Positions 3,555-5,666 of a stretch of 64,000 nucleotides of DNA are shown piece after piece (the first letter of the stretch is position 1; each line of letters begins with the position of its first letter). Both the position numbers and the translations under genes were made by a program. Source of the DNA: a bacterium (GTDB lineage: Bacteria; Patescibacteriota; Gracilibacteria; Absconditabacterales; Absconditicoccaceae); assembly GCA_020627925.1 (NCBI GenBank), contig JAHDFY010000006.1:1-64000 (forward strand). Direction: 5' to 3'. The notes below the pieces were generated by a model, which saw only the letters and a program-made list of their open reading frames with translations, was not told where the DNA came from and made no database searches.

Positions 3555-5471
3555 TTAGTTTGTTTTTTCCAGCGCTCTTTCTTTATATTCTTTGCTCACT
3601 TGGGTAACGAGTTCACTTGTTGGTAATTCGTATTGCTTCTTACTTCTGTATTCTCTTACAGAAACAGTATTTTCTGTTTGTTCTTTTTCTCCGATGACCA
3701 GAATGTATGGTATTTTCATCATTTCAGCATTACGAATCTTCTTATTCAAGCTGTCCGTTGAATTGTCCAGTTTTACTCTCAATCCGGCCTCTTGTAATTG
3801 TTTTTGTACTTGTGCGCCATGGTCGTTGAAAGCATCAGCAACTGTCAAAATAGTTACTTGTGTTGGAGCAAGCCACACAGGGAAAGCACCCATAAAATGC
3901 TCAGTCAGCACCCCAATACAACGTTCTAGTGAACCACAAATTGCTCTATGAATAACAACAGGGCGCTCTTTTTCACCTTCTTCATTAACAAAGCTTAGAT
4001 CAAAACGTTCTGGTAGGTTGAAGTCGAGTTGTATCGTAGCGAGTTGTCGTTCACGTTTGATAGCGTCTTTAAACATAAAATCAAGTTTTGGACCGTAGAA
4101 TGCAGCTTCTCCTTCAATTTTTTTGTAAACGATGTTTTGTTCTTGTGCAAGTTCTTCGAGCGCGTTCTCCGCATTGTCCCATAGCTCGCTATCACCCATG
4201 TATTTGCTTGTATCGCTGTAATCTCTTACCGATAAACTTACCCAATACTCATCCATCATTCCCATTGTTTGATAGAATTGTTTGATAATCTCAACAATAG
4301 TTCCTACTTCTTCCTTGATTTGACTAACACGACAGAATAAATGCCCATCATCTTGAGTGATACATCTTACTCTGGTTAACCCTGATAATTGTCACGACTT
4401 TTCATCTCTATAGACTGTTCCTGGTTCAAAATATTTGACCGGCATGTCACGGTAAGAAAAATTATTGTCTGCAAATAATTGCATATGATGAGGACAGTTC
4501 ATCGGTTTAACAAAAAAATCTTCTCCTGAGCTTCCGCCTTTTACCTTAAACATATCATCTAAGTAGTGTCCTGCATGTCCCGAACATTCATACAAACTTT
4601 CCTTTGCCAAGTGAGGAGTTCGTACTTTTTGATATCCTTTATCTTTGTGCATTGATCGCAAAAACTTTTCGAGTTCTTGACGAAGAATAGTTCCATTAGG
4701 ATGAAATAATGGTAACCCAGCTCCAACAAGAGGAGAAATAGTAAAAAGTTTGAGCTTTTGTCCCAAAACTCTATGATCACGCTTTTTTGCTTCTTCCAAA
4801 AAGTTGATATGATCTGTTAATCCTTGCTTATTTTCAAAAGCATATCCATAAATCCTTGTCATCATAGGATTATTGGCATCACCCCTCCAGTAGGCACCAG
4901 CAATCTTTGACGCTTTGAACGCATTAGGTACAAGTTCCCCTGTATCATCAACGTGTGGTCCTTCACACAAATCAGCAAATGTGATAAACTTTCCTTCCAA
5001 TGTAGGAATCTTTGTCCTAAAATAGTCCGTGATGATTTCATACTTTTTTTTGAATGTTGGCGCAGCATCTTTAAGTGCAAATTCCGCTGCTTTTTCAGAA
5101 ATGACATTGAGATAATACGTTACCTTCGTATCACCTTCTTCTTTGAATTTATTTAGCAAATCCAATTTAAATTCCTGACCGAACATTTTGAGTATGGTCT
5201 CCGATTCTTCAAAGTTTGACTCGTAATGTACGAATTCTTGCTTCTCTTTTATTATTTGCTGCATCAGTTTATTGATCGGCTTTAGTTGTGCTTCGTGAAA
5301 CTCAATTCCTTCCGAAAAAATAAAATCATAATAAAAACCATTGTCGATCGCAGGACCGATTCCAAGTTTTACATCAGGATCGAGTAATCTTTGTACCGCC
5401 TGTGCCATGATATGGGCAAGCGAATGTCTATGTGTTGCTATTGGATACTCTTTTTTTTCTTTGTCAGCCAT
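3555..5471 (-). CDS. thrS: Threonyl-tRNA synthetase lacking the TGS domain
   Basis: A 638-aa class II aminoacyl-tRNA synthetase charging tRNA-Thr. The chain opens almost at once with the N2 editing-domain motif HSLAH (16-20). The second editing site CEGPHV and GAYWRGD follow, then the catalytic core with KPMNCPHH (zinc Cys), motif 2 YRDEKSG (Gly from TGA at 4392-4394) and the anticodon-binding domain at the end. The usual N-terminal TGS domain is absent, but total length is near the family norm because the editing domain carries extra residues. The ATG at 5471 begins MADKEKKEYP; an upstream in-frame ATG at 5510 lies in the terminator hairpin and is unlikely. Regulation: see the leader peptide and attenuator upstream. 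Confidence 0.95.
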
Positions 5472-5496
5472 ACTGATATAATAATCATAATAAAAG

Positions 5497-5530
5497 AAAA
5501 CTCCTTGCATGGAGATGCAGGGAGTTTTGT
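5497..5530 (-). terminator. thrS attenuator terminator (arms 3:4)
   Basis: On the minus strand a 14-position stem (5528-5515 with 5510-5497, one mismatch, 4-base loop) is followed by TTTTCTTTTATT, ending 25 bases before the thrS start codon. Its 5' arm (segment 5530-5519) can instead pair with 5559-5548 (AGGGA and TTTTGT against ACAAAA and TCCCT, one mismatch), which would abolish the terminator. This is inferred from base pairing. Confidence 0.7.
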
Positions 5531-5557
5531 TTGAGCTTATTTATTACACAAAAATCC

Positions 5558-5608
5558 CTACGCAGGCGTAGTTGATGTTTTTGTCGTAACGGTATTTAGT
5601 GCTCTCAT
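5558..5608 (-). CDS. Threonine-rich leader peptide of thrS, 16 aa
   Basis: The frame ATG...TAG reads MRALNTVTTKTSTTPA: six Thr codons (ACC, ACG, ACA, ACA, ACT, ACG) in the last eleven residues. The last codons and stop form one hairpin, CTACGC-CT-GCGTAG (5571-5558), whose 3' arm overlaps the antiterminator strand (5559-5548). Stalling on Thr codons when charged tRNA-Thr is scarce would cover the first arm, free the antiterminator, and let thrS be read. This is the logic of the classical thr leader. The frame extends further upstream to an ATG at 5776, but the short version fits the predicted promoter. Confidence 0.65.
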   Translation of the reverse strand: MRALNTVTTKTSTTPA

Positions 5609-5638
5609 GTTACACATAATATGTGATAAACCATTTGT

Positions 5639-5666
5639 AGTATAGAAAGCACATGTATTTTTGCAA
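5639..5666 (-). promoter_or_regulatory. Predicted promoter of the thrS leader transcript
   Basis: On the minus strand TTGCAA (5666-5661), a 16-base spacer and TATACT (5644-5639) lie about 30 bases before the leader-peptide ATG at 5608. The rest of 5667-5836 shows no convincing gene. Confidence 0.5.

Follow-up and report, generated by a model that had tools for sequence, protein, structure and literature searches.

A threonine codon-rich leader before thrS in Absconditabacteria and related Gracilibacteria: a putative ribosome-mediated attenuator

The threonyl-tRNA synthetase gene thrS of an Absconditabacteria-type genome is preceded by a short open reading frame rich in threonine codons, which is followed by a stem-loop and a U-rich tract. 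This raises the question of whether the segment (positions 5666–5497, minus strand, of the 64,000-nucleotide stretch of DNA analyzed, termed the window) is a chance assembly or a device that regulates the gene. The thrS leader is very probably a ribosome-mediated transcription attenuator of the classical kind, by which the charging of Thr-tRNA would be sensed and thrS controlled. Sequence comparisons and folding models bring out how it is built, that it is conserved before thrS, and that its predicted helices exclude one another.

Architecture of the thrS leader

The features of the leader and its gene are as follows.

5639–5666, minus strand: sigma-70-like promoter, -35 box TTGCAA at 5666–5661, -10 box TATACT at 5644–5639, spacer of 16
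5558–5608, minus strand: leader peptide frame MRALNTVTTKTSTTPA, ATG at 5608, stop codon TAG at 5560–5558, 16 codons, six of them Thr codons
5543–5590 (about), minus strand: predicted helix 1:2 (pause/protector), Thr codons pair with strand 2; from the fold of 5608–5497 and the swap test
5517–5561, minus strand: predicted helix 2:3 (antiterminator), 5561–5548 with 5530–5517, 13 pairs and one mismatch
5492–5528, minus strand: predicted helix 3:4 (intrinsic terminator), stem 5528–5497 and U-rich tract UUUUCUUUU at 5500–5492
3555–5471, minus strand: thrS, threonyl-tRNA synthetase, ATG at 5471, TIGR00418 above cut-off

The thrS product displays the Pfam domains tRNA-synt_2b, HGTP_anticodon and tRNA_SAD, and the TIGR00418 fragments in the gene are all in frame. 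Because thrS of the window and of its relatives has in-frame UGA codons, the sequences indicate that the host genome reads UGA as Gly. The family of the window genome includes named Absconditabacteria/SR1 genomes.

A sequence-only reading of this DNA had placed a promoter at 5666–5639, and both boxes are found there. The promoter-like boxes have a composition-shuffle p of ~0.05, which is weak when taken alone; several relatives have a CTCTTGCA/T box at a comparable position. The 16-codon frame proposed by the same reading is also present, with Thr codons starting at 5593, 5587, 5584, 5578, 5572 and 5569. There is an alternative in-frame ATG at 5617, and no obvious Shine-Dalgarno sequence is seen ahead of the leader ATG. 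Of the 949 short ATG frames of the 64 kb window, no other reaches six Thr within its last 13 residues; this leader does so with either start.

Three pairings had been proposed downstream. The hairpin formed by the final codons (5571–5558) is present, but it makes up just the tip of helix 1:2, a longer stem that spans about 5590–5543 and whose strand 1 consists largely of the Thr codons themselves. The antiterminator pairing (5559–5548 with 5530–5519) is found as well, with its extent refined to that given above; it has a predicted energy of -15.6 kcal/mol (z -4.6, dinucleotide shuffles). The terminator stem at 5528–5497 holds as proposed, at -14.5 kcal/mol (z -6.3, dinucleotide shuffles), so that antiterminator and terminator are close in energy. 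It ends 25 bases ahead of the thrS ATG, and the leader stop codon lies 86 bases from thrS. The full leader (5608–5497) folds at -31 kcal/mol (z -4.6), a value equaled by 0 dinucleotide shuffles.

Conservation and covariation in relatives

The thrS regions of same-family genomes, of five other class members with code 25 and of 30 standard-code class loci were compared, and 77 were usable. A Thr leader precedes thrS in 31 of these. In 29 of them five or more of the final 13 residues are Thr; in the other two (L075 and L076) a shorter run of Thr occupies the same position before thrS. With the same scoring, no Thr-rich leader is seen in 96 regions upstream of other synthetase genes (29/77 vs 0/96, Fisher p 1.8e-12, which is a contrast and not a true probability, the related genomes being non-independent). 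At the level of sequence, this comparative evidence is decisive for the leader being more than chance.

The full element set is present in 22 of 44 same-family genomes, the window thrS region included. Three genomes of a second family with code 25 have it too, as do six class members with the standard code. Roughly half of the window's family is without it. The sequence-only reading had described a leader of a UGA=Gly bacterium. The leader is indeed conserved there, but the device extends beyond code-25 bacteria. Carriers with names are SR1 bacterium RAAC1_SR1_1 (L206) and several Gracilibacteria. Examples are MKHIHSTTTTTTTTTIV, MHLGTTTTTTTSQ (SR1 RAAC1_SR1_1) and MYICLTTTTTTTTTTI, and, with the standard code, MKSTTTTTTTTTE. 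The Thr codon run ranks among the most conserved parts of the leader, while the peptide outside of it varies freely, e.g. MKHIHS, MNVI, MHLG and MRALN.

A search of 288 class genomes with a covariance model made from 21 leaders detected the element in 25 of the 49 genomes of the family. Weaker matches that were inspected in distant families are mostly Thr leaders before thrS or in its neighborhood. Six matches (L309, L320, L322, L324, L327 and L328) were discarded; these have low scores and are Thr-rich coding sequence or show no leader. A scan of a phylum sample gave ten genomes with matches, six of them within the class. Outside the class, thrS is preceded by a Thr leader in L334 and L341, and in L340 such a leader stands before another gene; L337 was rejected as repetitive sequence. 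The Parcubacteria-type genomes among the named loci show no Thr leader before thrS. Judging from these genomes, the Thr leader is a widespread conserved element and no single oddity.

Several loci depart from the common arrangement. Some genomes have a further gene between the Thr leader and thrS, such as the NUDIX-domain gene of L031, and in L296 the leader is ~500 bases ahead of thrS. In two f18 genomes, at loci L310 and L311, the leader MNAAKIIITTTTTTTIM or MNKFALIITTTTTTTIM stands ahead of a gene that encodes ACT and homoserine dehydrogenase domains and just the end of an amino acid kinase domain. From its position, this leader appears to serve threonine synthesis with the same kind of sensor. 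In two families (L312 and L319) the gene behind the Thr leader encodes a small protein that has paired cysteines and whose end is HTH-like.

Downstream of the leader frame the strands follow in the order 2 (GGTAGGAGTTTT in many), 3 (ACTCCTACC) and 4 (GGTAGGATTTTTT). In other families, strands 2, 3 and 4 change jointly, to CGGAGGTTT, AAACCTCC and GGAGGTTTT in one set and to AGAGGGATTTTGTAA, TTTACAAATCTCTCT and AGAGAGATTTTTT in a second. The 3:4 duplex and the T-run are present in the 31 leaders.

A strand-swap test compared the duplex energies of own and swapped partners, using one leader per genus (16 leaders) and 5000 permutations, which removes the relatedness of the leaders only in part. 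Automatic terminator picking chose wrong stems in L062, L025, L051, L068, L004 and L078, and fixed windows before the T-run were used in the later tests. The mean duplex energy of 1:2 is -12.8 with own and -10.7 with swapped partners (1 of 5000 permutations as good). For 2:3 the values are -17.4 and -11.1, and for 3:4 they are -12.6 and -7.5; for each of these two helices 0 of 5000 permutations were as good. For 2:3 the window leader comes first among 31 partners; it is also first for 3:4, and third for 1:2.

Column pair counts among 21 family members give a covariation score for 3:4 that is reached by 0 of 500 shuffles. The same counts, taken on the MAFFT alignment, back 2:3 modestly (30 of 500 shuffles); in that alignment the window's strand 3 is displaced by a single base, which lowers its pair counts. 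When partners are slid, paired cells drop from ~90% to 29–57%. The mutual exclusivity of antiterminator and terminator, and that of protector and antiterminator, is by these comparisons kept by evolution.

Predicted switching and alternative explanations

The 31 leaders were folded with all bases masked up to 12 past the first base of the A-site codon. The 12-base ribosome footprint is that generally known from E. coli, and it was taken as fixed. With the ribosome at the stop codon the terminator is formed in 31 of 31 leaders, and with a stall midway along the Thr codons the antiterminator forms in 27 of 31, both under the assumed footprint. Left untranslated, 26 of the 31 leaders form the terminator. 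For the window leader a mid-run stall gives an antiterminator probability of 0.97. If the ribosome stalls at the last Thr codon, the predicted fold still holds the terminator; therefore only earlier stalls would be useful.

These folds suggest the following course, in which we infer from sequence the transcription start, translation of the leader, stalling, sensing and the control of thrS. The transcript would begin near 5632 and a ribosome would translate the leader. When Thr-tRNA is charged, the ribosome would get to the UAG at 5560 and cover strand 2; strands 3 and 4 would then form the terminator and thrS would be left untranscribed. When Thr-tRNA is scarce, the ribosome would stall at an early or middle Thr codon and helix 1:2 would be opened, strand 2 would pair with strand 3, and transcription would enter thrS. 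In an untranslated leader helix 1:2 would form, and termination would result.

The mutually exclusive pairings of the sequence-only reading are backed by both the swap tests and the masked folds. The Thr-rich frames and competing stems sought in relatives were both found there, in the 31 class regions, and with the assumed footprint the computed structures of most leaders, folded with and without the ribosome-masked part, change as the attenuation model predicts. The earlier regulatory reading is supported, with regulation itself read from sequence.

It is improbable that the hairpin is an ordinary terminator of a short upstream transcript, with a Thr frame that arose by chance and a thrS promoter further downstream. 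Terminator-like hairpins are common, and two loci (L050 and L054) do have thrS directly behind a promoter-like sequence with no leader. However, Thr-rich frames recur before thrS and are absent before the other synthetase genes scored, the covariation of strand 2 with strand 3 is unneeded for a plain terminator, and the distance from the terminator to the thrS ATG is too short for a full promoter. A third possibility, that of translational coupling or of a functional Thr-rich micropeptide in place of transcription attenuation, has very little probability. Leader genes can act by reinitiation too (PMC4833913), but here a strong terminator and U-tract lie in the 86 bases between the leader stop and thrS, and the residues outside the Thr run differ freely between leaders.

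The leader could also be sensed in another way, by ThrS binding its own leader or as a T-box, and this too is very unlikely. E. coli ThrS regulates its own gene (PMC2965389), and a T-box is present immediately before thrS in two standard-code class members (G049 and G058, E 1.6e-7 and 2.5e-7, below the gathering score, with a GGTGGAACC motif). The covariance model of the T-box (RF00230), on the other hand, gives no match in the window or in its own genome (G000), and none in the window's family sample in a search of 145 class genomes. A highly conserved run of Thr codons would be unneeded in a leader that binds a protein or tRNA. Attenuation by translation of the leader frame is the reading preferred here.

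Comparison with known leaders and significance

The E. coli thr, his, trp and pheST attenuators likewise have a leader rich in cognate codons, exclusive strands 1–4 and an intrinsic terminator before the gene. The features of a classical attenuator found here are a cognate codon run, an intrinsic terminator and exclusive helices kept by evolution. Unlike the E. coli amino acid operon attenuators, the target is thrS and no biosynthetic operon, the host is a Patescibacterium of a family with UGA = Gly, and strand 1 is formed in large part by Thr codons. The Rfam Thr_leader model (RF00506), which describes a leader of a different gene (the threonine operon) and phylum, gives a full-length collinear match at 5608–5492 of the minus strand (model positions 1–118 of 118). 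The match scores 20.6 bits (E 0.09), short of the gathering cut-off of 55 bits; therefore the window leader is likened to the E. coli thr leader and not filed in RF00506.

Leader-peptide attenuators are found before leuS and trpS2 in Streptomyces (PMC1262725) and before hisS paralogues in Bacillus (PMC2965389); comparable sensor exchanges are described for hisS (PMC2965389). The Streptomyces and Bacillus attenuators share with the present leader a synthetase gene, a cognate codon run and a terminator with a competing structure; they concern other amino acids and phyla, and are likened to it by architecture.

Many Gram-positive aminoacyl-tRNA synthetase genes use T-boxes. A T-box likewise senses the charging of its cognate tRNA; the sensor in the window is the leader frame. 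The GGTGGAACC motif of G049 and G058 is present in G057 as well; the loci of standard-code class members with a T-box-like leader directly before thrS are L331, L333 and L003. On this sequence evidence, thrS is governed by either of two tRNA-charging sensors, T-box or leader peptide, within one class.

The window's own genome displays two extra tyrosyl-tRNA synthetase genes (L198, at G000:C5:20864, and L197, at C5:261712), which are 87% identical. Upstream of each lie a leader, MI[KR]NRQNTSYYYYFRS, and a terminator with which a strand further upstream would compete; this leader is likely a Tyr attenuator, from its sequence. No match to the extra synthetase at E 1e-30 was seen in the other family genomes examined. 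In the same genome a frame that includes a Trp-Trp pair (MYQVQNNTWWTNSQKTSIGSRIFCW) is found ~100–260 bases before trpS (L189, G000:C5:255139), together with a hairpin and a terminator. There AGACCTCA could pair with TGAGGTCT inside the terminator, with a fold z of only -2.1, and the arrangement is likely a Trp attenuator.

It may be proposed, tentatively and at somewhat less than even chances, that leader-peptide attenuation generally tunes tRNA synthetases in Absconditabacteria and related Gracilibacteria (Thr widely; Tyr and Trp in the window genome), and that within this one class, whose genomes are reduced and of the host-dependent type, it has either displaced the T-box from the same gene or been displaced by it.

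A search of the open-licence literature found no report of attenuators or riboswitches in Gracilibacteria, Absconditabacteria or Patescibacteria. By that literature the Thr leader is a conserved regulatory element apparently undescribed in Patescibacteria, although the type of device is classical. Small leader frames may also be used as a check on the UGA=Gly code. One example is the Thr leader of G042 (L036, MNGITTTTTTTTNHIW / ATGAATTGAATAACAACT...), which runs through an in-frame UGA; in that form the leader, as predicted, requires UGA to be read as an amino acid. The leader of the window itself contains no UGA. The comparison provides an example of a single gene, thrS, that appears to be governed by a leader peptide or a T-box depending on the family within one class, and the leader indicates that these reduced bacteria monitor Thr-tRNA charging.
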